Assembly: GCA_009761415.1 (NCBI GenBank)
Contig: QUOL01000011.1
Span: 1,054,001-1,118,000 of the forward strand
Reading direction: 5' to 3'
Origin: Sarcomyxa edulis
Taxonomy: Eukaryota; Basidiomycota; Agaricomycetes; Agaricales; Mycenaceae
Length of the DNA: 64,000 bases
Numbering within the stretch: position 1 is the first letter of the stretch; each line of letters begins with the position of its first letter. Both the position numbers and the translations under genes were made by a program. The notes below the pieces were generated by a model. That model searched no databases. It was given only the letters and a program-made list of their open reading frames with translations, and was not told the DNA's origin. Below are positions 19,451-50,659 of the stretch, in pieces.

Positions 19451-19945
19451 AGCTCAATCTAGTTAAGTCGTTGCGAAGGTACACTGGCACTGTTGAGTCG
19501 TCACAAAGGTACTTTCTGTGTCTAATTTTTTTGTTTCGTACCACGATCTGACTTGACATTCAAGTTCCTGCGAACGCCGACATACGCATCGGCTAATTGG
19601 AGGGAGAACGAGGCCCTTCAAGTTCGTCGCGCGGTGGTATGTCCGCCGTACATGTCCGTAGCTTGCAACTCATTTCTCCCTGGTATATCTCGTAGCTAAC
19701 ACCCGCACGACTCGCCGCTGGACATCGAGATAGCGAACCCTCGGGAGGGGAAACCCTGGCAATTTTAAAACTAGCCGACAGTCCGTTTTGTAGATGCAGC
19801 TTTTTTTTGTTTGCGACTGTTTGTTTCTCTCGCGTACATCTATAGCTAGTACTCGTTATGCTAGTAGTTGTTATGTCCATCGCTCAGGCAACGCTAAGCT
19901 TCGAAGAGTATAACCACAAGAATGAAAACAAACAAGGATCACCAT

Positions 19946-20083
19946 AAAAGGCATCTAAGCAACCCGGGCCGTCATCCGCCCTATCACTTATTCCGACCGT
20001 CGAGTCAATGAATGAAAGCGGAATACATACAAAGCAGTGCAATAGATCTATCAACCACTACCACTACCAATCCTAACTAGGAT
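19946..20083. repeat. Head of segmental unit 2, cut off by the 20.4-kb insertion
   Basis: These 138 bp repeat the head of unit 1 (6305-6425) and stop at CCAATCCTAA, after which foreign sequence begins. The continuation, CCCTAACCCTACTACTCCC, is found at 40525. The two halves together give the sequence seen uninterrupted in unit 1. Confidence 0.9.
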
Positions 20084-20099
20084 TCATCAGCAAACCGGC
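20084..20099 (+). repeat. Left terminal inverted repeat of the composite element
   Basis: TCATCAGCAAACCGGC matches the inverse of 40509-40524 with one mismatch (CCGGC against CCAGC). Confidence 0.8.
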
Positions 20100-20500
20100 A
20101 ACTGGCTTTGAAGTGCTGCAGAGTACTGCATAGGGAGTTATAGAGCCAAAGTTCCCATAGAACGGGTCCTTGGGTTTATAGACCTCCGGAGTTCTGAATG
20201 TCATCTATGCAGTTCTACGAGACTTCCCCATAGTTTAGGCTTGTCTCTACAAAGATCTCCATAGGTATATCTCTTTGTTATGAATATCTTCGTAGCTGTA
20301 TCCTCTTACTATGGATGCCTCCATAGCTGTGTGTCTTCTCTATGGAGTTCTCCCAGTTTCTCCGGAGCATCCTCTGTAGTAGTACCCTAGTCGTAGTGAT
20401 ATGACTTTCCGTATCGCTCGAGATTCCAATAATCAGCAGATTTGATTCAAAAATGAGTACTATTAATGCTTCGTGTTATGCTATCATCCGCCCAGAGCCC
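20100..20500. repeat. Left subterminal region with CCATAG motifs
   Basis: No gene is seen. The stretch has repeated CCATAG/CTATGG words and a 20242-20263 block, GTCTCTACAAAGA plus CCATAG, that reappears inverted at 40329-40349. These are likely transposase-binding subterminal repeats by analogy with CACTA-like elements. Confidence 0.6.
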
Positions 20501-20532
20501 CAAAAAGTATATATGCAGTAAAGCAAACTGAT

Positions 20533-23500
20533 CTAATCGAGGACTACGCCGAGATTGTAATCCTCAGGCTCTCCTTGATGCTGAAGCCCCGAGCGAGAAC
20601 TGTACAGAAGAGTGAATCCCGTTGTCATGTTAGTATTGTTTCCAACAAAAGAAGACACTAGATATGCGTACGTTCCGTTGAGTGCCCATTGCTGTCGCGA
20701 TTCTAATAGCTTTGCTCCGTGGTAATCGTCTCTCTCGGTTCTCCTGATGAGTGACATAATAGCTTTCCAAATCCCTTCGTATTTCAGACGGTTGAATCGT
20801 TCCGTGATGTGTATGCCCGTACTCCACTCCTGTAGGCAGTGATTGAGCTAAAGACATGCGCCGGATAGCGAGAGGTAAGCAGCTGGGTCACGACGGCTAG
20901 AATGTGAGACTTACGCAAGTAGCGGCTAAGCAGAGCGCTCCACAGGGAAGGACCTTGAACTCGTTCGGGAACAGGATAGCGAGACCTTCTTGGTGGCCAT
21001 AATAGAATTCTGTGCAAAGATCGCGTAGAGCGGGATGTGCGAAGTTATTCGTTCGGTCCTGACAACGGTCAATAATGTAGTAGTAGTCAGCGAAGATAAA
21101 TAGATAAGAACCACAAGCGTACCTGTTCATCTTTACCATTCTGGAGGAAAGCCCCCTTGTCGAGGAGCTTCTTGACTTTCTTCACCGTGTAATTCAGCTT
21201 TTGTGCTGCGGTAAGGCCTTGCTTTTGCGTAAAGAGCTTATAATGGGCTGTCACCATGATACGAGCCTTTTCTTTGAGTCGAGAGCGGAATGCCGATCCT
21301 TCTTCGTACACCTGTGTCATAGCAACGGAGGACGGAAGAGTTCGTTGAGTGACACTAAGCTGCTGAGAGATTAGAGTTACGCACTAAGGTTTTCATATCT
21401 CGTTGATGATCTTCATAATAATCTGTAACAATAAGTTAGACGGCAGTGAGATCCGGGACTGTTGATAAGACACTTACTTGGCTCGACCATTCCGCCACCA
21501 TCCTCGTGCGCTGCCATAGCCTCGGTCAGACAATCAGCAGCGCGATTGATGTCCTTCTTAGGATGGGGAAAGCCAATCTCGGTAGCGACGACCAACCGGT
21601 ACTTTCTTTTTGCTGCTTCCAAAACATCGGTCCATTGACTTGGATAAAACTGGAGCTGGGTCGGTGTCCCTACTGCCGGACGAGAAGTCTTCGAGTGCCG
21701 TTTCGCCCTCTTCCTGACGGGATATGGCTCGGTGTCTGAGTCCCGGCCAGACTCGGAGTCGTCTTTCAAACCGTCGAGTTCATCAGCGCCGTGAGTTCCA
21801 TCCGCGCCGTGAGTTCCATCGGCGCGGTTAGAGCCATCTCCAGTGGTCTGTAAATCAGCAGATGCCTTGAGATGACCAACACCTGGAGGACGAGGTCCCC
21901 GATTTCGTTTGCGATGTTCCTGTAGAACATCGTCGCCGCTGTCGCTCTCACGGTACTCCAACTCATCTTGGTTCTCGTTGTTGCCCTGGCTGTCACGGTC
22001 TACTGACCCGGTCTGATTCTCACCATTGTCGTCGCTCTCATGATGTCTCGGCCCGGTCTGGTCCTCACCGTATCCAGGTTCGTACCATTTGGGCTGTAGC
22101 TTGAGAGTGAGGTCAGTCGAACGTTCAACGCAGCTAGTGGTCACTAACCGCCGCTAGACCATCACCATCAACACTCTTCTGAGCATTCGAGTCTAACAGG
22201 GACCACTTATAAGAAATTCGACATAAAAGAACAATCAGATGTACGTACCACCGCGTTTGCGCTTACTTCCAAAGCCGATGCTTGGGCGCGAATTTCTGAG
22301 GAACTCCATTGCGTTCCGCTCATCTTCATCATCAGAATGCTCATCTTCGAAGATGAATTGAAGTTAGTCAATCGAAATCCTGAATGGCTGCTACAACGCA
22401 CCTATGATCATATCGTCCAGCTCAGCCTCGGAAGCTTTGTTTGGACCGTACTTGTACTCTCCAAACTCTTCAGGATCATTGTAGAAATCCCGTCCTTCGA
22501 ATTCGGCAGAGCCCTCATAGTGGAATTTGCTAGGAGGTTCGTCATTGTAGTCATCGATATCGGTTGACTGGAGCTGGGTCTCGTCAGCCTTATGATCGTA
22601 GTTGTAGTTGGCATGACTCGGGGTCTGAGGGTGTTGAGAAACGGATGGTTGTGGAACCGATTGTTGAGAAGCAGGTTGTCGAGGTACGGATGGCCGTGGA
22701 ACAGGTTGTTGTGAAGAAGATTGTTGAGAAGAAGATTGTCGGGTAGCCGCTTCTCGAGGAACCGCTCCTTGAGAGACAGGTTGTCGAGGAGCCACTACCG
22801 TCGACGTGATGGCCTTGAAGAGCTGCGGAGTCACTTTCGCGGATGGCTTGATAGATAGAAGATCGGGGTCTATGGTTGGCGGTTGACGTTGGTTGAGGTT
22901 TCCACGACCAGACTTGGGGCTCGGATACTCGTTTGGTGCTTGTGACTTTGATTGTTTTTCTGTAGTCGGTCGTGACAGTTGAGAGTACCGTCTGCCAGTC
23001 TTGAGGTCTATGTAAGGGTGCATGTCTGCAGAATGAGAGTTCACCGCCTCAGACGTGGAACCAGAGGCGGTACGAATATCGCCTGGATTGAGGCCAAATC
23101 TACTACCGTCCCTAGCGCGCTGTAGCCTAGGACTTCGTGGTCCGTTCAAACTCGGCTCGGTTCCAGGAGGTACCATATACGTTACGGGAGCAGGAGCATC
23201 TTGCGTACCGGGAGGCAACTCCGATTTCTCAGCCGCTATATCCTGTACGCTCGCTCCCTTAAGTAAGTACAGACAGTAATAGAACAGTTCAGACGTACAG
23301 CCTTAGTTCGACGAGTCCTTTTGGCAGGGGGAGGAGGAGCCATAGGATTGACGGGAGCAGTACCGGGAATACCTTCGACACCGGTCTTTCTGGGGCGTGG
23401 AACGTGAGTAATCTTTTCGCTGAGACTCGCCATCCGTTCAACGTGTCCTCTGGTCCCGCGGGTAGAGCGTCGAGGTCGCTGACTTGCATTGGAAGGTCCT

Positions 23501-23617
23501 TCTATGGTGCTCGAAAATCACAGTTTTTCGATTCAAAAGGATTAATATCGTACCTTCGTTTTCCTCTTCAACTACAGGGTCCTTCGGAGCTGATTTACTG
23601 GACTTTTGTCGAGCCAT
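20533..23617 (-). CDS. DUF6532-like Agaricomycete protein
   Basis: Multi-exon gene. The start at 23617 (MARQKSSKSAPKDPV) is in a short basic first exon. The long N-terminal half is disordered, rich in Ser, Pro and Gln with 'SSQQSSSQQPVPRPSVPRQP', and then acidic. The C-terminal half fits the layout of DUF6532 proteins as I remember it: 'FYPSQWTDVLEAAKRKYRLV' with 'AADCLTEAM' after it, a helical 'KARIMVTAHYKLF' exon, a 'FAHPALRDLCTEFYYG' exon, and a last pair, 'EGIWKAIMSLIRR' and 'PEDYNLGVVLD' before the stop at 20533. The family is lineage-expanded in Agaricomycetes; its function is unknown to me. Introns of 50-70 bp are all GT-AG as far as I followed them. The gene reads outward toward the left end of the element. 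The assignment rests on pattern recall, not a profile search. Confidence 0.6.
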
Positions 23618-23839
23618 CGTGTGGGTGCATGGAGCAAGTAGGTAGATGTCGTTTGAGGATAGGATTTGAAGCGCCTAATGGCTGCCAGCGCATCCGCCTA
23701 GAGTGACGTAAATCTGGAAAATGTATACGATTTCGAGGTTAATATCAAGTCATTTGCAGACATATATCCTAGAGTGAGTACTAGATATTCGAGGGATACA
23801 ACTGCACATGGTTACAATAACATCCACCCAAGATCCCCG

Positions 23840-24582
23840 TCAATCCAACTTGACCCCAAGTACTCTCCCACCAATTTTGACATAGTAGTCATCTATCGAA
23901 GGGTTAAGAAAGTAGTATTAGATAGGTAACATAAGTATGCACTTACCTTTATACTGCTGAACATGAGTACGTACATCTTGACGGGGCCGTTTCAGAATAG
24001 AGAAGTGCCCACTCTTTCGCACCGAATGTCGAACCCTTCCAACGTAAAGATCGGCCTCGTCAAGACATCGTTTGGCCTCGTCTAGGGTTTGTTGCGCACG
24101 TTGGTGTCTGATGCGATAAAGCTTGGCCTGGAGTGCGGTCTCCTTGAGTTGACATTCTGCGAGTAGTCGTTGAGCATGGCATGTATCTCGTCTTGCATCG
24201 GCGACGTCAAGGACACATTTCGCTTCTTGGACAGTTCTGATAGGAGGAGCCTGGTAGTGTAGGATCTATGAGATATAAATCAGCGAAAAATCCACGTAGA
24301 GACTTACCTTGCTTTCGTCCCTCAAAAATGCAGTATCTGGGCTGATTGGTCTCCCAATTCCTGGGAGTTCGGCAGACATTCTGTAAGAATCAGAAGTAGG
24401 GGAGCCTTGTGAGCCTCAAAAGCAGCGGACAAGGCGATGAACTTACTGTAGTACAATTCCACGTTGGTATTCAGATGAAGATAAGACGATAAGACGAAAG
24501 GTGCGCCAAAGTCTGTTTGTAACTCCGCAATAACTCCGCCACCTCGCGTTGCCATCGTCTTCCTCGACGTCGAGGGTTCCAT
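23840..24582 (-). CDS. Small coiled-coil protein, unknown
   Basis: Four exons can be joined from ATG 24582: 'MEPSTSRKTMATRGGGVIAE...', 'MSAELPGIGRPISPDTAFL...', a long helical exon ('HAQRLLAECQLKETALQAKL'), and 'DDYYVKIGGRVLGVKLD' before the stop at 23840. Introns begin GTAAGT and end CAG or TAG. The product is about 190 aa with a heptad-like central helix. I do not recognise the family. It follows the DUF6532-like gene's strand and starts just left of an inverted repeat (24563-24672) whose partner lies just upstream of the Plavaka gene. Confidence 0.5.
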
Positions 24583-24672
24583 GTAGATAAATTATAATGT
24601 ACCCCGTATAAACCAGGGGTGCACGTTATGATGCGCCTATATCACTTACGTGCCCGAGACACTTTATAATGT
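24563..24672 (+). repeat. Inner inverted repeat, left copy
   Basis: About 110 bp repeated in inverse orientation at 36640-36755. In the core of 86 bp (from TAAATTATAATGTACCCC) I count 75 matches. Similarity fades outward through a shared CTCGACGTCG. It overlaps the start of the coiled-coil gene. It could be the terminal repeat of a nested KDZ/TET element or a duplicated promoter. From 24673 to 25025 there is a G-rich stretch with no gene seen. Confidence 0.7.
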
Positions 24673-25025
24673 GCACCTCAAATTTCCGGAATGGCTGCCG
24701 GGGATTCGGGGGGTGGAATTGGTGGTTGCTAGGGTAGCTGCTTGTGCACCGGGGATTGTTAGGCATGTCGGGGGTAATCCGGGAGGAGGGGGAGGACCTT
24801 CCGTCGCTTGGAATCTATTGCCCCCCCCAAATAATTATACACTTTCTTTTATGAGACTCATTGATAACATAATGCTCATTGAAAGATCCAGTACTAAGTA
24901 GATAGAGAAGGTAAAAGAAGCTAGCGCGACGGATTGCAGAAACAGCCGCAATGACGCGTCACTTTCGTGTTCTACCATTTTGTAGTATATTAGTAGGGGA
25001 AGAATTATCGCGTTAACAGGAAGCT

Positions 25026-27867
25026 TTACCTCTTGGTAGAAGTGCCCGAAATTCCAGGTCCCCCATCTTTGCGTCGAGAACGTCGAGATTTAGCAACGTC
25101 CCCGTGCGTGGTGGAATCTCCATCATCTGTGGCTTTTCTGAAAGAAAGGATCAAACGCAACGCCTCGCAGATTGAACAAGCGAAGAACGTACCTCTTCTT
25201 TGCAGAGCTCCCAGTAGCAGGCGTCTCGCAACCACGCATCTTCTCCAGCACCCATGCAACGTCCTCTGCAAGACCCTCCCACACACTATCCATACCGTCG
25301 CTGTATCTCCACCAGGCCAATGTAAGAAGAATAAGCATGATCCCACTAGTTCCCCCGTTGCTCAATGGCGCCCAGTTGGTAACGGTGCCGTCGGTATCAA
25401 ACGGTTGTCGACCTTTGGGTTGTACCTCTGTCCACCACAGCTGGCATTGGCCTCGAAAGTCTGGACTAACCGGCACATTATCCCAAGGACGACCGTTCTT
25501 CATCCAGTCGGAGACCTCAGGAGGTCGAGATGAGAGTGGGAGACGGCCAGCCCTTTCCTAGAACCATGAATCAGTCAGAGTCAACGAAGAATGGGAGGCT
25601 ACTCAACTGGAAAACCTCGAGACCTTTCAAAGAACACCCATGCCTTGAGGCAACGTGCCCAAATAGAGCCCCACTCCTTCCCTTCTGTAAAATAGTCAAA
25701 CGATCTGTTGAAGTGCTCAGGCCATCCAGATCTATCGATTGAGCGGCTCAAAGAGGCGATAGAACTTGAAGAATCCACAGAGAAATCCCCAGACTGTTCA
25801 GTTGGAGTGGAGGAGGATGATGCCTGCTGCTGTTGCAGCACCGACGATGTCTGTTGCTGATGCTGCTGGGACGACGTCTGCTGCGGTTCTTTTGGCGGCG
25901 AAACAGATCCAGGTCGAGATGGGAACGATTCGGCGCGTTGAGGGTGGGATGGCTGTCGATCTTGTCCTAGCAGTGGGGCGGATGCGCGTTGGACAGGGGA
26001 CAACTGACGAGCCGGGGACGATTGACGAGCCGGGGAGGATTGACGAGCCGGGGAAGATTGACGAGCCGGGGATGATTGACGAGCGGGGGAGGATTGACGA
26101 GCGGGGGAGGATTGACGAGCCGGGGAGGATTGACGAGCCGGGGAGGATTGACGAGCCGGGGAGGATTGACGAGCCGGGGAAGATTGACGAGCCGGGGATG
26201 ATTGACGAGCGGGGGAGGATTGACGAGCGGGGGAGGATTGACGAGCGGGGGAGGATTGACGAGCGGGGGAGGATTGACGAGCGGGGGAGGATTGACGCGC
26301 CGGTGGGGATTGGGGAGCAGGAGACGATTGGGGAGGAGAAGAAGTTTGAGGGTCGTGAGGAGGCCCCTGCATGCCCTCGAGAGGACCTCGAGGTAAATCA
26401 TCTCCATCTTCGTCAAGGGGGGGGAGCTCTGCACGTTGGCTCGTCGTCTGAGTGCGGTTGGCTTCGAGATTTAACAGCTTGGGATCAATCGATGCATCGC
26501 CGTTTGAACCAGAGGCCGGGCCGCTAGATGCACGTTCATTTGAGGGTGAATCAAAGCGTAAGGCGTGAGCAAAAGGGTCGACGATGGAGGTAAAGCTTCC
26601 AGATGTGGCGGTAGGGTCATTCTGCCCTTCTTGGCCGCTGAACGCGTGGGAGTACGCCATTTCTGGGGCCTTGTCTTGCAGGAAAACGCGGTCTTGACAC
26701 TGCTGTTTAGCTGAAAGGATGATTAGAGCCACGTACAACAGAAAGATGAACAGGAAGGGTACGTACTGAAAAGTGCACGCCCAAAGCGACAAAGCGACGA
26801 GATCGCATCCGTAAATCCAGCGTTATCGAACACAGGCCATATCTTATTGATCGCACAGTTGCTCGTATCAGAGTGGACACTATATAGGAAGTCATATCAG
26901 TAAGCAAAGCCCTACAACAAGAATATGATGAACAATCGTACCTTCGAACGGACACCTCGCCACCTTCAGAAGCAATCGGTCCAACCATGAGCAAGGTAAC
27001 GTGTAAACCGAATCTCTCTGCGATAGCATCCACGAGAGGCACGAGAACTTCGTCTCCAGACTCCAAGGCTCTGGAAGATGAAAATTCATAAATAAATCCT
27101 AGATAATATAACGAACGAGAGACATACCTATGATATTCCTCTGCGGATGACTCATGATGTGCCTTCCTGCGGGTTTTATATGCATCTGCAGCGTCTTGGT
27201 AATTCTTGTCAGCCTGAGCGACGATGTTGGATCTGAAACCCTCCGACTCTTCGTTCCACTTGCGAGCTATGAAGTCTCGACACATCGAAAGGCGTTCACT
27301 GTTGGGTACCGTGGACTTCGCGTCGTTCCATATCTCCTGGAACTCGAACTGCATGGGCCCCCCTTTGTAATAGAGCGAGGAATAGAGGTTGATAGGATTT
27401 TGACGGCGAGGGCGAGCGGGTGCGTCGGAAATGGATTTCAAAAAATCTGCGATAGCACTCTTGTCCGATTTTTTAGCAGTATACTTGTGGCGAAACCATT
27501 GTGCGAGTTTCTGCAGAGTAAGAAATAAGAAGCCTAATCTTAACTCTCGAAAAAGCAATAGACTCACAGGACGAAGATCTTTCAAAATTTGACGCCTTCT
27601 TTCCACTTCTACATCTGGAAGCCCGGGCGCGCTTACTACATTTCCCTCATCGTCTTCAGGTATAATGCCTCCTGCGACGTCCTGGTCAAAAGGTAGATCG
27701 AAACCGTATCTTTTTAAGAAGATGTGTGTGATGCGCGTGTAGAAAGCGCTTGGGTCCGCTTTTTGAGCCTCCAGAAATTCGTCCTTGAAGCTTTCCAGAA
27801 AAAGGGATTTTGTGCCTTGAAAAGAGCTCGAACGACCAGCGGGTTTGCCTGATTTTTTACGACCCAT
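25026..27867 (-). CDS. Large Agaricomycete-specific protein with ARQSSP hexapeptide repeats
   Basis: Multi-exon gene from ATG 27867 (MGRKKSGKPAGRSSSFQG) to the stop at 25026. Exons in order: an N-terminal domain ('FYTRITHIFLKRYGFDLPF'), 'QILKDLRP', a helical exon ('NLYSSLYYKGGPMQFEFQ'), 'FGLHVTLLMVGPIASEGGEV' followed by 'SVHSDTSNCAINKIWPVFD', then a long disordered exon with about 17 tandem ARQSSP-type hexapeptides. The C-terminal exons contain 'SIWARCLKAWVFFERS', 'WWTEVQPKGRQPF', 'APLSNGGTSGIMLILLTLA' and a basic tail. From memory this fits a large, uncharacterised Agaricomycete family with an N-terminal DNA-binding-like part and a C-terminal W-rich domain, common near transposons. Function unknown. 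Long plus-strand open frames over the repeat are shadows. Confidence 0.6.
26005..26310 (-). repeat. 18-bp minisatellite, 17 copies, coding ARQSSP
   Basis: Unit TGACGAGCCGGGGAGGAT with few variants. The variant order of copies 3-6 repeats at copies 10-13, which points to a seven-unit block duplication. It lies in frame within the large minus-strand protein. Confidence 0.95.
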
Positions 27868-27955
27868 AATAATGTGGACGAAATGTGAGTCAGCCACAAC
27901 CCAAATATATACAAAGAGTTGAAATTGCACTCGGTGCGGCTAGCATCGGCTATCG

Positions 27956-29191
27956 ATGTCCAAACCCAAGACTCTCATAACTCAAGATCTCGTCGGGCTC
28001 GACGAGCAGGAAGCAGCTTATCTGATAGCTGCCATATCAGACGATATACCATCCGAAGACGGTAAGTTATACTGATTTCATTTATATAAACTCTACCTAT
28101 GTAATCTAACAGATCAACCCAAAACGTCTACTCGAACCCGGCCTGTTTCGAGCATCAAAGACTCGACGAAATACAATGTAGATGGTGGATCTTCTCCTGG
28201 TATCTACGATGAATGGTAAGCCACCGTTCTATGAGATTTATCTTGGGCCCCGAGGTTCTGTTTCACAGGTATCAAGCTGGAGATGCTACCATTGGGAAAT
28301 CGGGCGTTACAGCGCGAGCATTCAAAGACTACTCCTCGACTCATACAGTTCGCGAGTCTTCCTATTCCCAGAATACCAAAAACCCAGACAACACATCGAC
28401 TCAAAGCGCTAGCAGTTTGAAACGCCCTCCAAGCTGGATCCCCCCATCTACGTCAACGTCTAGCATTGGTGGCAGCAGAAGTCGAGTAGCAGATCGAGCA
28501 CCCCCTTTTGTAGTTGTATTCAAGGGAACCGTTCCTGGTGTGTACGGCGACTGGTGCGTGGCCTAAACTTTGTGATCTTGAAAACCGGCTAACACGTTTC
28601 CAGGCCTAGCGTTCTCTCTGCGACTGAAGGTGTTGATGGGGCTTTTTTCGGCGAGTTCGATAGCCTTGAGGAAGCAAACACGGCGTGGCGGACTGCACTT
28701 CAAGGGAACGACTATGCAGTCCTAGATCGCAGCTCAATTTTTCCACGACGCGACGTCGAGCAGGGGGTCTTCGATGATGATGACCCCTTCTTTTCGTTAC
28801 CCTGGTCTGCGCCACCCTCCAGCCCAGATCCACCTGCGGCTTCAAACTCCCGCCATTCTCATACCGCACCTCCCCTCAAGAGCGTTCGAATCAAAGTAGA
28901 GCCAGACTCACCCACCCCCACCCCCACCCGTTCCAAACCCCCATCGTCGGTCAAGGGCAAGGGCAAAGGCTACACAGTTTTTCAGGGCATCAACCCCGGT
29001 GTCTACGAAACATGGTGCGTCATCATCGCCCTCTCTTTTAGGAAAAAACTAACAGAAATAGGGAAGAGGCGAAGGCCGAGACACACGGCGTTTCGGGAAA
29101 CCTCCACGAGTCGTTTGAGACCCTTGCTATCGCGCAACGTAAATTTGAATCTGCTCTTCAGGAGGGTAAAGTGAAGGAGCTTGGCAGATAA
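27956..29191 (+). CDS. Protein with three RNase H1 N-terminal / viroplasmin-like domains
   Basis: Five exons (27956-28061, 28113-28215, 28269-28553, 28604-29014, 29062-29191) give an in-frame 344-aa protein. The third domain is clear: 'YTVFQGINPGVYETW' then 'EEAKAETHGVSGNLHESF', the pattern of the RNase H1 N-terminal (hybrid-binding)/caulimovirus viroplasmin fold. The second, 'FVVVFKGTVPGVYGDW' with '...GVDGAFFGEFDSLEEAN', matches well. The first is reduced ('SPGIYDEW' plus a diverged tail). An intron interrupts the codon of the conserved Trp in all three domains. No RNase H catalytic domain is present, so it should bind RNA:DNA hybrids or double-stranded RNA without cutting; this is inferred from the family. 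It is divergent from the 25-27.9 kb gene, 88 bp apart. The charged linker includes 'KSVRIKVEPDSPTPT', a possible sumoylation site. Confidence 0.75.
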
Positions 29192-29321
29192 CCATTTTAT
29201 TTCGAATTGTATATTTCTTTTCAATACATTTGTTTTATTTGAGACATAGCCCTCCACGTGTGTTTGAGAACAAAACAAAATGGATCGATATATGGGGATA
29301 CAGAGCTAAGAGAGTTGCGAA

Positions 29322-29954
29322 CTAATACGACATGGATAGCTGAGGGCCGCAGGTAATGCCCAGAGCTTTGCATACCGCTCTCATCTCCTCCTTCTCCTTC
29401 TCCTTCATTTCGCGTCCCTCGTCCCTGCGTTTCCTATACATTATCGTGTTGGGAATGAAAGTACGAGCAGAAACAAACGCACTCACCTAAACCTATCCAG
29501 CTTTGCCTGCAAACGCAGACGCTCCCGGTTTCTGTTGATGAGGGAGGCAAAAATAATTTCAGCGAGTAGTAGTACACTATTGTGAGGGAGCATACCTTTC
29601 TCGCCAGCGAGCGTCGGCGGCCTTTCTCTGCTCCTTCTTCTGTTCAATTTTTTCTGGAGGCAATGCTCGTTGATTTTCTCTGGCCCTTGTGAGATTGAAG
29701 TCAGAATGTCAGTTGTTAACTAAATAGAAATGGGCAACGTACTTTGCTTGACGATCCCTTGCCTTCTCTCGCAGTACTCTCTGATTCCTGGAGTACGTCG
29801 TTCATATAAATCAATTGTAACGAGCAGTTGATGAGACCTACCTTTTGTAATAGACGGCAAGATTGGCAAGGCGCGAAATGCGCTTGTGGAACGCATCTGC
29901 GTTTTCGGAAGGGCCATCGGCATTGGGGGTTTCGTCGTCGTCGGACGCAGACAT
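29322..29954 (-). CDS. Small basic coiled-coil protein
   Basis: Five or so tiny exons from ATG 29954: 'MSASDDDETPNADGPSENAD', 'RISRLANLAVYYKR', 'NQRVLREKARDRQAK', 'RENQRALPPEKIEQKKEQRK' and onward, 'NRERLRLQAKLDRFR', ending 'ALGITCGPQLSMSY'. Introns are about 45-70 bp with GT-AG ends. The protein is very rich in Arg, Lys and Glu and should form one long charged helix. Similar YY..N..VREK..-type proteins are common unknowns in Agaricomycetes. A nucleic-acid or chromatin role is plausible from charge but unproven. The palindromic array begins only 27 bp upstream of the start codon, so it lies in the promoter or 5' UTR. Confidence 0.5.
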
Positions 29955-29980
29955 GTTCAATGTGTGAGTCAATGTGCTGG

Positions 29981-30225
29981 CGTGATGAGATTCGCGACTT
30001 CGTGAAATCAAGGGAGTCGCGAATCTCATCACGGTCTGGACCTGCGTGATGAGATTCGCGACTTCGTGGAATCAAGGGAGTCGCGAATCTCATCACGGTC
30101 TGGACCTGCGTGATGAGATTCGCGACTTCGTGAAATCAAGGGAGTCGCAAACCACGTCACGCAAGTCCAGACCGTGATGAGATTCGCGACTCCCTTGATT
30201 CCACGAAGTCGCGAATCTCATCACG
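29981..30225. repeat. Array of GTGATGAGATTCGCGACT hairpins
   Basis: The 18-mer GTGATGAGATTCGCGACT and its inverse alternate. Each pair forms a hairpin with about 20-bp arms and a 15-bp spacer (TTCGTGAAATCAAGG-like), joined by GGTCTGGACCTG. There are three direct copies at about 62-64-bp period and a fourth inverted. Every arm carries a TCGCGA core with CpG sites. It lies between the coiled-coil and TET/JBP genes. Confidence 0.9.
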
Positions 30226-30336
30226 GTATCGATGAAGAGGGGAAGGTATATACTAATATGATCTCTTTTGCAACTACTAGTACATTATTCTAATACAAAG
30301 AGGGTGTGTATTGTAGTGCTACACAAATTCCTGATA

Positions 30337-30704
30337 TATCATGTCTATACTCTATGAGTTGGTAGTGAGTCGCGAACCTCACCATGCATATTTCTCATAC
30401 ATTGGCATGGAGTCGCGAACATCACCATGCACATTTCTCATGCATTGGCATGGAGTCGCGAATCTCATCACGCCAGCGCAAAGCATGGTGATGTTCGCGA
30501 CTCCATGAAAGTCGCAAACCACGTCATGATAGCAACGGAGTCGCGAATCTCATCACGCCAGCGCAAAGCATGGTGATGTTCGCGACTCCATGCCAATGCA
30601 TGAGAAATGTGCATGGTGATGTTCGCGACTCCATGCCAATGTATGAGAAATATGCATGGTGAGGTTCGCGACTCACTACCAACTCATAGAGTATAGACAT
30701 GATA
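30337..30704. repeat. Long inverted repeat (368 bp) with the same TCGCGA motif
   Basis: The left arm from 30337 (TATCATGTCTATACTCTATG) is the exact inverse of the right arm ending at 30704 over more than 120 bp. The centre contains smaller palindromes (GGAGTCGCGAATCTCATCAC against GTGATGTTCGCGACTCC). If transcribed it would fold into a long double-stranded RNA. The 30226-30336 gap before it holds nothing recognisable. Confidence 0.9.
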
Positions 30705-30769
30705 CGATGTGTTCACGACTTTTTTTTACTATTATATTACACGCTGTGTCCCAATTGCAATGCTGGTAG

Positions 30770-32513
30770 CTACTTCAACAGGTCATCTAATCTAGAAAAC
30801 ATTCCAAGTCCCTCCTCCCATCGAGTCTTCTGATCTGCAGATCTCTTCCTCTTTTCTGCATCGCTAGCCTCTCTGTCAAATGCCAAATCGGACCGAAAAC
30901 CATTGTAGACGAAGCGAAACAGATGGCCTGAGCTATACTGCGTGAATGAGTAGCGCGTCTCCCCTGGTTGAATTCGTGTGTTTGAATGGCGTAGAAGTGC
31001 GGACGGTATGAGGATTGTCGAGCCTGGAGGAAAGCGAATTACTAACCCAAGATTCCAAAGGACGAGGTGGCCGCCGAGGTCTGGATTGAAACGACCAAGG
31101 GCTGTGATGGCACACCAGCCCCAGGCTAGATTAGCAGCGTCGATGTGAGGAAGTGTGGTGGTTTGGGGGCCAAAGTTAAACGTCGCTGCTGCGAAGACTC
31201 CTTTGGCAAAGTTGCGCTTGAGCTTTGAGTTCCACGATAGAAGTGCATCGAGGCCCGTTTGAAGAAAGAGGAACACATGAGGTGCGAATGCTGCAAGAAG
31301 GCCTTGGACAAGGCGTTAGATTAGCGTGCACAGGCTAAGGCGATCGCGTACATACAGTTTGCAAAGCCTGACATACGAATGAGCGCAGCATGAGCAAGGA
31401 GATTCAGAATGATAGCTTCGTTCGTCAAGGAGCTCTGGTCTAGATTGCGGGGCGTCTTCGAGGGATTAGCAATTAGCGCAATATTTGAGGAGGGGCTTAC
31501 TCGCTGGCCTCCGCCGTACGATATCCCCACTGCAACTGCTGCGAATGGTCCCCTACGATGATCTTTCTGATTTGGCGTGAAGCGGGCCTTTGCACCCGCT
31601 TCCTCAAAGGCTGTGGTGACGGGGTTGACCACATCGTTCTGCCATTTGGGATCTCGCGGCTGACCACCAAGCACTCCAACCACGCGACGGTCAGCGTCAA
31701 TTATAGGTCGCGAAGATCTAGTGTACGTCAGTACTTTACTTGCTTAGGTACCGGAGGGAACTCACTGTCCATCCCAATCGACAAGCCTCATCCCATACTC
31801 TGGCCCAAGTAGTTCAGAAACGTTTAGCAGACCCATCCCGCCTTCATATCGATGACCTATCCATGCAGACCCAGCAACAGGAATCGCTTTCAAGTCCAGC
31901 TTTGTCTCAATCGCGTCGGGTACAGATCTGGAGCGCCGAGTTAAGGCAACCTTCTTGAGTGAGTTTGCCTGAGAAGCAGCAGCAGCTTCGCGCGCCTTGT
32001 AACGAGACTCTCTCTTCCTTCTCGCCTTTTTTGAGAGGTGGGACCACTTTGCAGAGGGGGTTTGGTTCTCGTGGAAGAGGCCCTTCGGTATGGCGGCTTG
32101 TTTGTTGTCTTCAGCGCCTTTGGGGGTGGCGGTAGGTTCAGGCTCACCGTCAGACTCGTACGTGTCAAGCCCTGCCTCTTGATAAGCGTCGAGACTATCC
32201 TGAATACGGAATGGGAAGGCTCCCTCGATAGCGTCGTCGATGTCAAAGGTGAAGGGCGAGAAGGTAGCGCCCGATCGCGTGTTTCCTAATTAAGAAGCGA
32301 CGTCAGTCAACGTTCAAAGTAAGAGATGAGGCAGTAAGAATTGTAGCCCCAAGGTCAGGCCACTGTATTTGCAAAGGTGCAAGGGAATCAAAGGCATCGC
32401 CATAGCGCGTCTGCCTTTTCTGCAGATTCCAAGGTCGGACCCGCGTACTAAGGGCTTACGGAACGGCTGAAGGGTTTGAAAGATTTAATAAATGAGCGGA
32501 ACTTACGCTCCAT
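30770..32513 (-). CDS. TET/JBP-family 2-oxoglutarate/Fe(II) dioxygenase (copy 2)
   Basis: Same family as the gene at 322-2105. ATG 32513 opens a 7-nt coding exon joined over a long intron to 'NTRSGATFSPFTFDIDDAI'. Further exons contain 'GMRLVDWDGQ', 'DHRRGPF...GISYGGGQR' and 'RMSGFANC'. The catalytic exon shows the HxD motif as His-Ile-Asp in 'LPHIDAANL', a distal His in 'LRHSNT' and Arg in 'GETRYSFTQYSSG'. All metal- and cosubstrate-binding residues are present. The protein ends 'MFSRLDDLLK'. It is transcribed divergently from the KDZ transposase with 184 bp between start codons. Expected role: oxidation of 5-methylcytosine in DNA. The link to transposon regulation is inferred. The exact short exons between 31300 and 31760 are approximate. 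Confidence 0.8.
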
Positions 32514-32697
32514 TTCTACCAACTTTGCTCTTCGGCTCTGGGTGTGTTGAGCGACAATGGTGTGGCGAGCTTGAGGCTTTGAAGTTTTAGGCTGAGGGTG
32601 TACAAACGAGTGGCAACAACGCGCCAGTCACATCTGTGACTTGTACAGCGCAATCACGATCAACCAAGTTTTTCGACATCCAACACGCTCGTGGCTC
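32514..32697. promoter_or_regulatory. Putative bidirectional promoter between TET/JBP and KDZ genes
   Basis: The 184 bp between the two divergent start codons hold no other gene. I see no clear TATA box. Shared control of the two genes is inferred from spacing only. Confidence 0.5.
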
Positions 32698-35600
32698 ATG
32701 CCCTGCGACAGGAAGGACAAGGCCAAGAAGGCCAGGTCTCAACGGGGCATCTATATCCATAACCCTCCTCAACCTGTGGCCGTATCCACTGGCTCCCTCT
32801 CTCACACACGCCTTCACAAGCATCACACCCTTTTGCCCCCAGAGCCGGCTGTCGAGGCTGACAATGCCACCTCCGAAAATAATGGGATGGACCTCGACCC
32901 TCTTTACACCGTAGACGAGGAATTCAACGGCTCTACTATTCAACCCCCCCCTTGTGTATCCGGTATCAAGGTTAGGTCGAAAGCGAAGCGCTACAACAAC
33001 TCGGTGAGTTACAACCCCCTTATCCACCGTACGGCTCTTGACAAGATCTGCAGGATATGCCCCTTACTACCTGGATCAAGTATCGAGAGCAGTACCTCGA
33101 CACCAACCTTTCCCTCGAGGGTAGGGGTGCTCACGCTGACGGGTGCGTAGAGTGTGGAGAGGCGCTGCCCACCTATCGATGTCGTGACTGCCACGGGCGT
33201 AGTATGTATTGCAGGAGGTGTATTCTGGAGAGGCATGTGAATGAGCCTCTTCATGTCCTCGAGGTATGCGCCATTTTTATCCTATTTTCTCCAGATACTG
33301 ATTCTGTTCGTAGGTCTGGCAGAATGAATACTTCCAGAGGGTCACGCCTTCTGAAGAGGGACTCAGATTCCAGGTTGGACACGCAGTAGGTGGGCCTTGT
33401 CCACTGGCTCGCCGCGCCCACAAAAATTTTATGGTGTTTCATACAAACGGTATTCACTTCGTCAGCGTCGACTACTGCGGATGTTCCAATTCAGGTCCCG
33501 ACCGTCAACAGCTCATGGAAGTAGGATGGATGCCAGCCACGCCCCTTGAGCCTCAAACTTGCGCTACGATTCCCTGTATGCGCCATTTCCACACCATCAA
33601 CCTCCAAGGACGAGTCTCACCCTATGATTTCTACAAGACCCTCGAGCTCATGACGGATCCATTTGGATTTATGGACCTTCCGGTTAGTACTTTTGAGTAG
33701 CTCTTTTGAAGATCCATCTGACCGCGTCCTTTTAATCCACAGAACCGTCTATCCGCCTTCATGCTCCTTGTAAGGGAGTGGCGGCACATTAAGATGACGA
33801 AGAGGGCTGGTCGCGGCCATGATCCTTCAGGCATTGCTGGGACGTCGAGGGGAGAGTTGTCAATCCCTTGCCGCGCATGTCCACAGCCTGGAATAAATCT
33901 TCCTTCGGGATGGGAGAATGCACCACCGGAAATAAAGTAGGCAGCCTCCCTCCCAAAAGCTCATATTTGTGCACTGACTCATCTGTAGATGGATATATAC
34001 GCTGATTCTATCTCAAGACGCAAATTTTCGTTTGAAGGGACGGCTTCGCTCATCCGATGCCAAGGATCCTACTCTTGGGCCTGGTTGGGCGTACTTTGTC
34101 GCCAATGACGCCTACCTGGAGCATCTATCAAAGTACGTTGACCAAGATGAGGTACGGCGATTGTTCTGTCTACCTTGACAATTGCTTTACTGACGCGTTT
34201 AATCCTTTAGATCAGCCACTGCGTTGGATTCGCTGCTCTCTGGAAGGCGAACAGCAAGAAATCGAGAGGGCTGCGTGCGACTGGGGTAGGCTCTGTGAGT
34301 TGTGCGAGGCATGAGATGTTTCGAGCGAACGGTACAGGCGATTTGCAGAAGGGTGAAAGGTGCGCAGTTAGAAGCTTCTGTGTTTCTTGACGCTGACCAT
34401 TCTTCAGATATTGTAACATGGATTATCTATTTCTATCAAGCCTCGTCGGTACCCTTATCCTCTCGATCATTGCCTCCTACGATATCGCATGCCAGTGGTT
34501 CAAAAACTTCTGGTCCCGACACGCCGCCATGCCACCTGCAATTCAATTCAAAAAAATTCCACTCCTCTCCTTTAAAGTACCCAAGTTTCACCTTCCACCC
34601 CACATTCAAGCATGCCAGGCTCCCTTTTCATTCAATTTTACCAAAGGCGTTGGCAAGACGGACGGTGAGGCTCCGGAACGCAATTGGTCCTGGCTAAACT
34701 GTGCCGCGCGTTGTATCTCAGTCATGGGGCCTGGTGGACGGCAGGATACACTGGACGATTTCTGTGGGTTTTCCAACTGGAAGAAGGTGGTTGCCTTGGG
34801 TACGTCTTGCGCTAGTTTCTTCCACCACCCAATCTAAATATCTTCTGCAGGGGACTCGATGCTTCGCAAAATGGCCTTGGCAATTCCTCAAGCAATCCTT
34901 CACCGCCGCGCCTTTCACGCATTCACGGAGGGCCTCAAGTCAGAACATGCAGAGCAGTTGGTTGATTGGGAAAGGATGGTGAGGGAGTGGACCATCGATC
35001 ACACAAAGCCCAACCCTTATGAAGTTGCAGAGGACTGTAAGCCCATTCCCCTTGCATCTTGGCTCACGCTGACGTACTCCTTAGCCGTAACCATGGCGCA
35101 GATTAAACACCAGCTTTCCGAGGAGGAGAACGCTAGGGCCAGGGCAGGGGATGCGGCCCCTTCAGACGTTGGTCCCGCAGGTTTTATTTTAGCAGGGTTG
35201 GAGATTGAAGAGGCTCAGTAAGTAGCTATTCAACGAAAAACTCTACGCTTTGACTAACGCTAGCAACAGACACGTCCTGAAGGTCGACAGCCGAAAGCGA
35301 AAGCTAACGACGACGCAAGCTACTGCACTACAGGATCGACGTACTGCTCTGCTTCGCAAGATTCAAAAGTTCCGCGACGTCCAGGACGTGTACATGCCTG
35401 GTCTACGGCACTTCCTTGACCAAACGCAGGGGGACTTGGCAGAGCAAGAGCGCGACGCTCACTCTGAGAACCTCGCCATCCACCTCCCCTCTTCACTCTC
35501 CTCTGCAGATCGCGCCACCATCTGCGTTCCTGGTGTCGTCGACGTCGAGGATCGACTTCGCTATGGGGAGGCCTGTGAAGCTCTGGAGACTCTGCGTCGA

Positions 35601-36506
35601 CAGCTTCGAACACGTACCTTCACCACCAAATTCAAGGCAAAGCACGTTGTAGGACAGGGCGCCTATACGAGAACCCGAGTTCTACAGGATCAGATTGAGG
35701 CAAAGATTCGTGCAGCGCGTGCACGATACTGCGCTGCACGCGCTGCCCTTCTTGCGCTGAGAGGGCCGGGTGACTGGGAGGAAGTCCTACAGGTCCTGAA
35801 AGCAGAGGACGTTCGAGCTTTGAACGAACGGACCCTCACTGTAGAGGAGAAGGATGCAGAAGAACGAGCCAGACAACTCGCAGGCGTTGTTGACGGCGTG
35901 GACGACGAGGATCCAGATCGTAGTGTTGAAGTTAGGCCTATAGGAGTTGTAGAGATCGGGGAAGGTCGCAGGCAGCTGTCGTGGATTTGGTATAGGGTCT
36001 CAGCTGGAGAGGTCGAACGCGATGGCGCTGGCACTCTACACGAAGGTAGGAGTTTTTGTTTATTTATTTATCTGCCATTGCTAAATGCTACAGTTTCTAT
36101 CTATACAGGTATCCGTCTTGAATGGGCTAAGTGCCGAGCGCGTGCAGAACGCTGGCGTGAGGAGCTAATCCTGCTCGAAGAAGAAATGCGACGAGTTATA
36201 GAGTTTTGCAACTGGAAGGCTGCCTGGTGGGATGGACAAGCAGATCGCCGCTCAAATATGTCTCCGCACCTTCTTGAAGGGATTCGTGCATATGCAGCTG
36301 AGCAAGCTGCAACCGAAAGGAGGCTGGCTAGGGTATGGGCCCTAAAGTGGGATATGGTTCGTCAGAGGGCTCGCGTTGCTTTGGAGGCAGGTGCTTCGGA
36401 TGTAGCAGATGAATTGGAAGAAGTAGGACCAGAGATTGAGGTTGTATTACAGGCTGACGAGGATATAGGGGAGGAGGATTTTGCGGGGTACGAGGACGAC
36501 GATTGA
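32698..36506 (+). CDS. KDZ (Kyakuja-Dileera-Zisupton) transposase with CxC2 zinc domain
   Basis: Eleven exons (32698-33003, 33054-33263, 33314-33682, 33743-33936, 33989-34151, 34211-34359, 34408-34799, 34851-35036, 35085-35217, 35270-36045, 36109-36506) join in frame to 1091 aa with GT-AG introns. The CxC2-type zinc-binding region is visible: 'CVECGEALPTYRCRDC' then 'MYCRRCILERH', then 'VDYCGC'. The KDZ core follows, with 'GERYCNMDYLFLSS', 'ASYDIACQWFKNFW' (its Asp a likely catalytic residue) and 'DGEAPERNWSWLN'. The C-terminal 350 residues are helical and Glu/Arg-rich. No stops or frameshifts, so the gene may be active. The ATG at 32698 is the first in frame. KDZ transposases in basidiomycetes are often next to TET/JBP genes, as here. 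Confidence 0.92.
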
Positions 36507-36568
36507 AGTTTCTATTTTTAGTATTTTTAGTATTTTTAGTATTTTAAGCAGCTCCGGAGGGTAGCCAC

Positions 36569-36618
36569 AAAGGGAGATGCCCCGGGACTACTGTCAATGT
36601 CCCGGAGCATCTCCCTTT
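36569..36618 (+). terminator. Strong hairpin downstream of KDZ gene
   Basis: The arms AAAGGGAGATGCCCCGGGAC and GTCCCGGAGCATCTCCCTTT pair at 19 of 20 positions around a 10-nt loop, followed by a T-run. It sits 60 bp after the KDZ stop and a TAGTATTTT microsatellite. It may mark the 3' end of the transcript or an element end. Confidence 0.45.
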
Positions 36619-36639
36619 TTTCAGGATATGTTGTCCGGG

Positions 36640-36755
36640 ACACATTATAATGTGTCTCGAGCACACAAGTCATATAGGTACATCATAACGTGCACCACTG
36701 GATTTTATGGGGTACATTATAATTTAGGCTACTTGGACTGTTGCGACGTCGAGTC
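36640..36755 (-). repeat. Inner inverted repeat, right copy
   Basis: Inverse partner of 24563-24672. It lies 35 bp upstream of the Plavaka start codon, so it is in that gene's promoter. Confidence 0.7.
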
Positions 36756-36789
36756 ATTCGAGATTGTTGCTCACTATTGGCAGATCGCC

Positions 36790-39700
36790 ATGGCTCGCTG
36801 CCCACAATGCAGCAAAAACTTCAAAAATCAGGCAGCTGTTCTCAATCACATGAACCAGCCACTCGGATCCTGTCATTCATATCCCAAAGGACTCGTTAGA
36901 ATATCGGACATGCTACGCCAGCAGCAAAGCTCCTCACAGCGACAGAGAGGAGAAAACCAGCCGCCATCAGTGTCTGTTCCAGTACAAGGCTCCCCTCCCC
37001 ATGACGAAGATCAATCCAGGTCCACACATGTTGATAACGAGACCAACATCGATCCCATGGATGTCGATGAATCGGACATCGATCTCATGGATGTCGATAA
37101 GTCCGACACTGACGAAACCGATTCGAACTCTCACTCCGAGGCTACAGCTCCACAATATGTAGTTGAAGAATATCCTGGTGCCTCAAAAACCTATGGCTCA
37201 GGTCCGACATTCATGGAATCATTCGAGACTGATCCCTATGCCAGCGAGCGTGACGAGGTTCCATATTATCCGTTTTCCTCCAAGGAAGAATGGGAGGTTG
37301 CTTCGTTTCTCCTTCGCTCAAACTTGAGTATGTCCGCTATCGATGAATTCTTATCGTTGAATCTTGTGGTGAGTCAGATTTTTCTCTTTTTCCTCTCGCC
37401 TTTCATAGCTGAGGTTTTCTACAGGTCAATAAACTCCATCTGTCGTTTCGAACTGCAAAAGACTTGCGAGCGCGTATGGAGATCCTTCCCAAGGGCCCCG
37501 AGTGGAAGTGTAAACGAATTAGCACAGTCTATCCCACAAAACACGTTATCCGTCTCTTTTACCGCGATCCACTAGATTGCATCCAATCACTTCTCGAAAG
37601 TCCGCTCGTCAAAGACCACATTCATTTTTCTCCTCTACGTATTTTTAAGACCGCCGAGAAGCTTGTGCGAGTGTACAATGAATGGCTCACGGGCGACGTT
37701 GCATGGCGAATGCAGGTAGGACTCTCGTCCCCCTACAATCCGTGTTTTCTGACTTGTTATTATAGAGCAAACTACCCCCCGGTGCTACATTGCTCGGAAC
37801 CATCCTCTCCTCCGACAAAACTAACATCTCCGCAATGACCGGCAACCGTATTGCTCACCCCCTTCTCATCAGCATCGCTAACCTCGACATGGACTTTCTT
37901 ATGAAAGCCGCTCACCAAGCCTTTCTCTTACTCGCGCTTGTTCCCATTCCCATTTTTCTTCACCGTAAGAAAGAAGTCTGTAGTGTCTTGGAGTATCGGG
38001 TGTTTCACCAATGCCTCGACTTCATCCTTCAGCCTCTTAAAACCGCCGCACGTATAGGCATCATGATGTCCGACCCCTTAGGATCGACCCGATACTGTTT
38101 CACGCCATTCGCAGCTGCTATTATTGACACACCTGAGTCTGCCTTATATGCTGGTGTTGCTGGAAAGACTTCGTCAGTCACCACGGCGACCTATAAGGAG
38201 TTCGGCGACCGATTTCAGCATCCACCTCGAACCTCTGCATATACACTCAGAAAACTCAGAAAACTTCGTCGGAAGGTCCATCCGTGGGATATTGAGAAGT
38301 ATATCCGTGAGGCGAAGAAACTTCGTTTGAATGGTGTGCACTTACCATTCTGGAGAGATTGGTCGGGATCAGAACTACCCCTAGTCTACACACCAGAACC
38401 CCTTCACCACTGGCATAAATTCTTCTGGGACCACGAAGCGAAGTGGTGCATCCGTCTACTTGGCGCTGCCGAGATCGACTTTCGTTTTTCCATTTTGCAC
38501 CCTCATACAGGTTTTCGTCATTTCAAAGAAGGGATCTCGAAGCTGAAGCAAGTCACGGGGCGCGAACATCGTGATATTCAGCGCTATATCATCGCGGTCA
38601 TTGCCGGGGCAGCTCCCAAGGACTTCATCATCGCCGTTCGTGCACTCATGGAGTTCCGGTATCGCGGACAGGCTCCAGAGCATGACGATGCCGCTTTAGA
38701 TCGTATATCGAGCGCCTTGAGTGAGTTCCATGACCACAAGGCCGCCATTCTTACTGCGGGAGTCCGTGTTGGAAAAGCGAATCGCCCTATCAATAACTGG
38801 GAAATTCCGAAGCTAGAATTCATGCAGAGCGTTGTATCCAACATTCGAGGAAACGGAACCCCTATTAAATTCTCTGCAGATCGCACGGAAAATGCTCACA
38901 TCACAGAGATCAAAGACCCCGCCCGTGCAGGCAACAACCAGAATTACGAGGATCAAATCTGCCGCTTCCTCGACCGTCGCGAGAAATGCCGACGATTCGA
39001 TCTTGCAACAGCAATTCGTGATGCTGGCATCGATTTCGGAGAATCACCGACAGACGCTCAGACCGATGCTGCTGCCAATGTCGATGGATCTGACATCGAC
39101 GAGTCCGAAACGCAGATGGATAACGATGAAATGAGTAACGTTCACATATCCACCACATCCGCTCTTCTTGAGCTCATAAGTCCTGTCTCTGCCTCTACGG
39201 TCGGAAAGGCTAAGAGGGTTACTGTTGATTATTTTGGCTCAGCACTACGACTTCGTAGCGGCGACTATCCCCGTGCTCCTTTACCATTGCGAACGTTCGC
39301 TGATTCCACCAACACAACGGCCTTTCAGATCAACTCGCACTCGAGTCTCAAGATAACCCTCGTCGACGACGTTGCAACATTATATGGCATTACTGATCTT
39401 CGCTCTGCGCTCGCTGATTTTTTACACCGTGTCAAGACAGGGCTCAATGACCACACCATCGCGGGGCGCAGGGTCGCTCCTCAAGATGCGCCTTTGCCTT
39501 TCGATACTCTGCAGGTGTGGTCTACATTCCGAATCCAGTCAAAAACGTATCATCGACCCCACACTCTTCTCCCGCCTCAAACTATCAACGCGTTCCCACC
39601 ATCTGACCAAACCGAGTGGAAATTTGGCCGCTATGATCCGGTCATCATCAACACCGATTCTGCTTCGCGTTGGCCAGAGTCCGGCCTTACAGGTCCGTTT

Positions 39701-40133
39701 TTTTCACCGTTAATTGTGAACGAACATCCATTCTTATTGTCATATAGGTCATCTTGTTGCTCAGGTCTGCCTCGTCATGCGTGCTGTACCTCGACACGGC
39801 TGCAAGCCCGCTCCGGGGACAGATCAGTTTCTGTGCTACGCCCGGCGTTTCGAGGTTGTCCCGCAGCTCAATCCTCGTTTATCCAATGAACGAGGTCTGT
39901 ATCCAGACCCAATCACTGCATTCTATATCGTTAAACGTAGCCGACGCGCGGACGGAACTGCGATGGGTGACGTTGTTCCACTACATCAAGTGCGAGCCCT
40001 CGTAGAGTTGACGCCGTGTCTGGGGCAGAAGGCAAATCCTCAGTTGACGAAAGAAACAAGCATGCACCACTCTCAACAGTTCTATCTCGACAAATTCTTC
40101 GATAAAGAGCTGTTCTATGCTCTTGACGTGTAA
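36790..40133 (+). CDS. Plavaka-family transposase (CACTA/EnSpm-related)
   Basis: Four exons (36790-37368, 37425-37715, 37766-39692, 39748-40133) give an uninterrupted 1060-aa frame. The N-terminus is a C2H2-like finger, 'MARCPQCSKNFKNQAAVLNH', with a following Cys-His. A disordered acidic stretch with 'PMDVDESDIDLMDVD' comes next. The Plavaka core contains 'GTILSSDKTNISAMTGNR', 'PLLISIANLDMDF', 'MMSDPLGSTRYCFTP', 'GAAEIDFRFSILHPHTGFRH' and 'FKEGISKLKQVTGREHRD'. The C-terminal part ends 'FDKELFYALDV'. All blocks I associate with the family are present and in order, so it looks intact. It is the gene nearest the right terminal inverted repeat (390 bp) and is the best candidate for mobilising the 20.4-kb element. 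Start at 36790 gives the zinc finger at the very N-terminus, as usual for the family. Confidence 0.92.
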
Positions 40134-40508
40134 TTCTATCTCGGAGTCTGTTAGTAGTTTCGATTGAAATAAATGTTGAAATTTCGACCGTAAGTCTGAC
40201 TATCATAGTGACACTGCAAGTATTACTTCGAGTATCTGAACTTACTATCAAGGTGTACACCGAGTCTCTGAAGTTCCCTGTAGATACGCCTCAAATCTAT
40301 GTCGTTCTTTGTAGATACGTCTCAAATCTATGGCATTCTTTGTAGAGACCAGCCGAAGCTATGAAGTCCTTCGAAAATGTCGCATTTCTTTCCGAAACTT
40401 TGAGTGTATATGGATTTATGGATATTGTTATGTGTTCTATGCGATTTCTATAGATTCTATAGGTGTCTATGTCTCCAAGTATCTGCTATATATTTCTATG
40501 CGAAAAAA
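40134..40508. repeat. Right subterminal region with CTATGG/CATAG motifs
   Basis: No gene is seen. Two copies of a TCAAATCTATGNCNTTCTTTG-like block lie at about 40292-40345. Many ATAGA/CTATG words are present, and the inverse of the left-end GTCTCTACAAAGA motif is at 40337-40349. Confidence 0.6.
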
Positions 40509-40524
40509 GCTGGTTTGCTGATGA
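40509..40524 (-). repeat. Right terminal inverted repeat of the composite element
   Basis: GCTGGTTTGCTGATGA, inverse of the left end with one mismatch. The next base begins the unit 2 sequence CCCTAACCCTACTACTCCC. Confidence 0.8.
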
Positions 40525-40588
40525 CCCTAACCCTACTACTCCCAGTCCCAGTCCCAGTCCCACTACCAACTCAACACCACTACTAGAT

Positions 40589-42650: not shown

Positions 42651-42661
42651 GTTAGGGTTAG
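42651..42661 (+). promoter_or_regulatory. Telobox-like GTTAGGGTTAG (unit 2)
   Basis: Same position relative to the J-domain gene as in unit 1. Confidence 0.4.
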
Positions 42662-42949
42662 AATGATCGTGCAAGTAACCTACTGCGAATATTCGATGAA
42701 TCAGCGCGTATCGATGGTTGAAAAAAAAACCTCGGACTTACGTTACACGAGCCTCGATGGCCCTGTCTTGTGCTGAGGTGTACGATACGACATTGGGTTG
42801 TTGATATTGCCGTTTATCGACTGGGATTGGGGAGGAATTGTGGGTGTAGATGTCGGGACTGGTACGTTGAGGTCAAAGGGAGTCGTGGCTTGGCGTCTGT
42901 CCGGCGTCTAAACTCGGCGTCTCTTTCGATCACGATCGCAGTCACAGCG

Positions 42950-44250: not shown

Positions 44251-44289
44251 ATACGATGTCAACGAAGCGCGAGCGAGGATAGAGTGGTA

Positions 44290-44342
44290 TGCAATGAGGG
44301 GCTCTGCCCCTCATCGCATACTCGCGCTCGGCGTAGCCGAGC
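44290..44342 (+). repeat. Double hairpin element (unit 2)
   Basis: Same two hairpins as at 10295-10347; their cores are unchanged. Confidence 0.7.
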
Positions 44343-44653
44343 TGAAGGACTGTGTAATTAGCCGAGGTAGCTTTGGAAGAGAACTAAGTTGGAAGAATCG
44401 GTCAATGACTAGATTGATAAACGATGGTGATGGTGAGTAGACTTACGAAAAAGACATCGGTATCCATCGTGAAAGGCAGCGACGGAATCGAGGAGTTTTT
44501 GAGCCGAGGAATGGGCGGCGGCGGCGGCGACGACTGGGTTTGGAGGATACCAACGACGACGTCGAGGGTGGGGAATCTAGCTGAGGAATGGGCGGCGGCG
44601 GAGACGACGACTGGGTTTGGAGGACAAGGACGACGACGTTGAGGGTGGGGAAT

Positions 44654-50650: not shown

Positions 50651-50659
50651 CATGTTCTC

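Follow-up and report, generated by a model that had tools for sequence, protein, structure and literature searches.

The locus considered here lies in a stretch of 64,000 nucleotides from Sarcomyxa edulis (contig QUOL01000011.1, positions 1,054,001 to 1,118,000; hereafter the window), in which an insertion of about 20 kb interrupts a tandem segmental array. The question it raises is whether this insertion is one giant cargo-bearing transposon, as a preliminary description had it, or the product of separate insertions. We compared it with the rest of the genome (35.6 Mb in 40 contigs; C-numbers below denote loci in this same genome), and the comparison leaves little doubt that the insertion consists of nested transposons, with a Kyakuja-like KDZ element residing inside a PlavakaB-type element. 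What seemed a giant cargo transposon would thereby become two transposons of known kinds, one nested in the other, with the boundaries of both available from a single genome.

Insertion site and outer termini

The units of the segmental array are about 13.6 kb long (6446-20077, 40552-54108 and 54141-64000), with main alignments at 86-88% identity and some pieces at about 80%. They begin near a DnaJ/TPR-like gene, for which the top database match was 56% identical, and their junctions carry the telomere-like repeat CCCTAACCCTA. Two junctions are present without the insert, one at 6420-6450 reading CCAATCCTAACCCTAACCCTACTACTCCC and the other at 54090-54130 being the same except for two substitutions, so the insertion is real when judged against them. 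The empty site previously claimed for the window holds as regards uninterrupted junctions, but the empty sites are paralogues located where tandem units meet and not an empty allele.

The inverted ends reported at 20084 and 40524 were confirmed, with the 13-mer TCATCAGCAAACC matching exactly at 20084-20096 on the forward strand and, inverted, at 40512-40524 on the reverse strand. This terminal repeat had 11 matches genome-wide against one for its reversed control, and the end core CATCAGCAAACC had 46 against four. Under the rule published for PlavakaB, the limits of the outer element are CATCAG at 20085 and CTGATG at 40523, and its termini CATCAGCAAACC..GGTTTGCTGATG have the form 5'-CATCA..TGATG-3'. 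As for the inverted subterminal motifs described earlier, an inverted-repeat scan of the window did recover the 13-mer pair GTCTCTACAAAGA at 20243 and 40338, but by itself this pair does not exceed chance because the same scan gives many unrelated pairs of 12-14 bases.

Comparison of the junctions by eye suggests a 2-bp target duplication AC, with copies at 20076-20077 and 40524-40525, which appears only when seven extra bases at the left junction are set aside. These unexplained bases (TAGGATT, 20078-20084) follow the left AC, are partly an inverted copy of the adjoining ATCCTA and resemble filler DNA. Matching 2-bp duplications were present in five of the nine outer pairs with flanks compared, a chance match being expected arithmetically in about 1 in 16, and no direct match was seen in the remaining pairs, namely that of the window, one on C23, and those on C11 and C4.

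Copies of the outer element

Genome searches, for which the leftmost 397 bp and rightmost 385 bp served as queries, identified two copies possessing both ends, C10:39980-48347 (8,368 bp) and C9:123231-131478 (8,248 bp). Alignments to these copies divide the outer element of the window into a left part that begins with the CATCAG end and stops at the inner insertion (20085-24571) and a right part running up to the CTGATG end (36744-40523), both on the forward strand. Positions 20085-24575 matched C10:39980-44580 at 85.6% identity and positions 36744-40523 matched C10:44570-48347 at 83.4%; the C9 copy aligned to the left side in three pieces at 72-73% and to the right side in one piece (36790-40524) at 81.9%. 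Both copies match the window on either side of a 12.17-kb inner block and never across it. On C10 the matched ranges have 11 bp in common, which is what a target duplication predicts. On removal of 24572-36743 and one repeat copy, the outer element of the window measures 8,262 bp and is 86.2% identical to the C10 copy, to which it aligns gaplessly at the join, and 78.1% identical to the C9 copy.

Boundaries and relatives of the inner element

The preliminary description placed all genes inside one pair of ends and overlooked a second pair further inside, which lies at 24572 and 36743 and has a target-site repeat to itself. The Kyakuja-like KDZ element with a TET/JBP-fold gene that these ends delimit lies on the forward strand and is 12,172 bp long (or occupies 24575-36743 if the duplication is of 10 bp). 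It is flanked by direct copies of CGACGTC at 24565-24571 and 36744-36750, with 10 bp in all, CGACGTCGAG, common to both flanks. Target-site duplications, which had been suggested as a check, are thus of ambiguous length at the inner element and, at the outer element of the window, appear only with the seven extra bases set aside.

A relative of 12,408 bp at C10:404834-417241 is flanked by CAACAGA and likewise shares 10 bp between its flanks (CAACAGAGAG), and its termini are related to those of the window element (GAGGCTTCC..GGACTGTTG against GAGGGTTCC..GGACTGTTG). Since 10 bp are shared in both full copies, the duplication is of either 7 or 10 bp. The right-end motif ACTTGGACTGTTG had six exact matches in the genome against none for the control. 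Three further sites of this motif (two on C1 and one on C36) were considered as KDZ right ends and rejected, being devoid of the AT-rich subterminal block; they look like chance matches, and the length of the duplication hence rests on the two full copies. A genome search with the left-terminus pattern matched C10 only, since that pattern does not fit the copy in the window. A third relative, at C16, has the TET gene, the KDZ gene and the right end in common with the window; its left end was not found at that locus, and genes A and B had no clear match there among the matches listed.

The C10 relative keeps the gene order A, B, C, TET, KDZ. Identity to the window proteins was 53% for A (residues 1-283, the first half), 37% for part of B, 57% for nearly all of TET and 65% for most of KDZ, and the recurrence of these four genes implies that they are part of this KDZ family, as opposed to cargo that a composite had picked up. 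Gene C, at 42% over 31 residues only, is a candidate member of this family on thin sequence resemblance.

Proposed nested insertion and alternative explanations

We propose that an element of the PlavakaB type, about 8.26 kb in length and with at least two genes (DUF6532 and the Plavaka transposase), inserted at the junction of two tandem units, and that a 12.17-kb KDZ element, with at most three accessory genes in addition to that of the TET/JBP-fold dioxygenase, inserted into this element, duplicating 7-10 bp. Nesting means that the outer element existed before the inner insertion. The two elements have separate ends, transposases and relatives, and a separate cut-and-paste reaction should move each of them, each transposase presumably cutting the ends assigned to it; the dioxygenase may counter cytosine methylation of the element. 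The direct observations behind this proposal are the boundaries seen for each element, the absence of the block from other outer copies, the direct repeat, the gene order conserved in the inner relative, and the low dN/dS of the two outer genes between copies. It is nothing unusual for a transposon of one known kind to insert into one of another.

The spacing of the outer ends bears on whether the nest has also travelled as a whole. A count of neighbouring exact ends in this genome gave, beside two wider pairs at 39 kb and 632 kb, 13 convergent pairs up to 20.5 kb apart: the window pair at 20.4 kb, two at 8.2-8.4 kb, one at 3.3 kb and nine at 1.36-1.90 kb. The nine short pairs, which have the same ends and are located on C4, C5, C11, C14, C23, C36 and C39, presumably represent non-autonomous elements derived from this Plavaka family. 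The search for the ends at the same spacing elsewhere in the genome, proposed at the outset, came back empty, with 20.4 kb found in none of the 12 other pairs of this count, so nothing shows that the nest moved as a unit. A history in which the nest formed first and Plavaka afterwards carried it whole to its present site accords with the intact ends and the complete Plavaka model, and which step came first cannot be read from the sequence. We regard it as unlikely, given that no second exact-end pair at 20.4 kb was among those found in the genome and that the inner insertion, whose 3' boundary precedes the Plavaka start codon (36790) by 46 bp, probably disturbs the promoter.

The idea of a single large composite, whose Plavaka ends would move KDZ and TET jointly with other cargo and whose short copies would be deletion derivatives, draws on the same intact outer ends and on complete gene models for both transposases, and Plavaka could in principle carry the whole. 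It is however very improbable, and we reject it as the origin of the locus: the C10 and C9 outer copies are without the repeat-bounded KDZ/TET block, the C10 copy retains one copy of the repeat, the block has an independent 12.4-kb relative with its own flanking repeat, and the long spacing occurs in one of 13 convergent pairs. That the outer ends stem from unrelated short elements with 20 kb of host sequence between them, a notion to which the nine short pairs lend a precedent, is refuted for practical purposes by the C10 and C9 copies, which carry both ends and match the left and right parts of the window over nearly their whole length.

Gene content of the two elements

The nested reading assigns the genes to two elements. 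All were modelled with a simple splice-and-codon model without transcripts, in which introns can be routed around stops, and their splice sites are accordingly predicted ones. The presence of a Plavaka transposase (PF18759), a KDZ transposase (PF18758 with CxC2) and a TET-fold dioxygenase in the insert was borne out. The number of additional genes had been overstated, as four were modelled (DUF6532, A, B and C) in place of at least five, and the frames described as open are so within intron-containing models only, which are free to avoid stops.

In the outer element, the DUF6532 gene (20533-22309, reverse strand) was modelled with eight exons and 444 aa, with an uncertain 5' end (PF20149, 3.5e-42), and the Plavaka transposase gene (36790-40133, forward strand) with four exons and 1060 aa (PF18759, 1.2e-87, the match spanning profile positions 1-325 of 325 in a scan of the first 679 residues). 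Both have low dN/dS between copies: for DUF6532, dN was 0.031 and dS 0.254 against C10, with 0.116 and 0.853 against C9; for Plavaka, the corresponding values were 0.047 and 0.663 against C10 and 0.058 and 0.665 against C9. The projected codons of both genes in the C10 and C9 copies contained no in-frame stops, and the frame breaks comprised a 1-base gap in the C10 Plavaka gene and a 1-base insertion in the C9 DUF6532 gene. The dS values against C10 are unequal between the two genes (20533-22309 and 36790-40133), which may reflect exchange between copies. A further open frame of 303 aa on the reverse strand (22391-23302), without a Pfam match and outside the DUF6532 model, is either a further exon or a third gene. 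No TET gene was found in the outer parts of the nest.

In the inner element, gene A (25798-27867, reverse strand) has an uncertain 3' end owing to 18-bp repeats, the array of which lies within the gene at 25996-26330. No Pfam family was detected in the 314 residues scanned, and a search depending on shared exact words gave three database relatives. Gene B (28231-29191, forward strand) encodes a protein with an RNase H1 N-terminal (Cauli_VI) domain (PF01693, 5e-15), and gene C (29577-29954, reverse strand), a weak model, would encode a small basic protein. A palindromic satellite with exact inverted arms of 37 and 74 bases (29976-30704) separates gene C from the TET/JBP-fold 2-oxoglutarate dioxygenase gene (30770-32397, reverse strand; five exons, 456 aa), which is also found in the C10 relative. 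The KDZ transposase with a CxC2 cluster (32698-36506, forward strand; 11 exons, 1057 aa) was recognised by its domain matches (PF18758, 1.3e-39; PF18803 (CxC2), 3e-37; first 540 residues scanned).

The dioxygenase and its possible significance

The structure model of a homologue of the dioxygenase (P0001) matched CcTet, NgTET1 and TET2 in fold comparison, and the TET-like fold combined with the HxD..H iron-binding residues identifies the protein as a dioxygenase of this type. PDB sequence searches with the protein and with its alignment gave no TET among the matches listed, fold comparison alone having given TET; NCBIfam gave no match for the main exon, and the top database match was 43% identical. 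The protein carries the TET2-like HxDxxN, and at CcTet positions 331 and 337, assigned by spacing from HxD and not by superposition, Asn and Cys occur in the window protein and in 33 of 33 homologues. Published AG-type Kyakuja enzymes keep Gly/Ser and Asp at these two positions, and neither was found in the window protein.

We tentatively suggest, as a possibility less likely than not to hold in full, that the locus is a snapshot of TET passing between superfamilies, a TET-bearing KDZ element being caught inside intact PlavakaB ends, and that the dioxygenase belongs to a TET lineage borne by KDZ elements and separate from the published AG and PE types, its TET2-like active-site Asn predicting oxidation of 5mC but not of 6mA. 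With intact PlavakaB ends and a complete Plavaka gene around the KDZ element, Plavaka could carry TET away. Later loss of the KDZ ends would then leave a TET+ Plavaka, and the nesting would be a concrete first step of TET transfer between transposon superfamilies, a process termed passive in a passage of Kojima 2025 (PMC12730594). The Asn/Cys enzyme would likewise offer a relative of CcTet that is open to testing and for which another range of substrates is expected.

Comparison with published transposons

In passages of Kojima 2025 (PMC12730594), PlavakaB is described with CATCA..TGATG termini and target duplications of 2-3 bp; for TET+ Kyakuja, the duplications are 7 bp long and the termini CA..TG. 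The outer element resembles the former in its termini and its Plavaka transposase, and five of nine pairs, not directly including that of the window, have matching 2-bp duplications; it differs in having a DUF6532 gene, which those passages do not mention, and in that TET sits in the nested element. Excerpts of other reports name DUF6532 beside KDZ and Plavaka domains in Ganoderma, and give KDZ and Plavaka as about half of the DNA elements in the Marasmius oreades genome. The word 'nested' is absent from the text of PMC12730594, and none of the publications listed by a literature word search combines Kyakuja, Plavaka and nested.

The inner element shares with TET+ Kyakuja, as described in the same passages, a KDZ transposase, a TET/JBP-fold gene, a flanking repeat of at least 7 bp and a 3' TG. 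Unlike it, both full copies begin with GAGG/GG and not CA, the flanking repeat extends to 10 bp, genes A, B and C are additional, and the dioxygenase departs from the AG type at two diagnostic positions. Compared with CcTet of Coprinopsis cinerea (8jkk, 7w5p, 7vpn), the dioxygenase is 12% identical and has Asn for Gly331 and Cys for Asp337, as placed by spacing from HxD. By these sequence features the outer element fits a PlavakaB-type transposon and the inner one a TET-bearing Kyakuja-like transposon, both of them known kinds according to the passages of PMC12730594.
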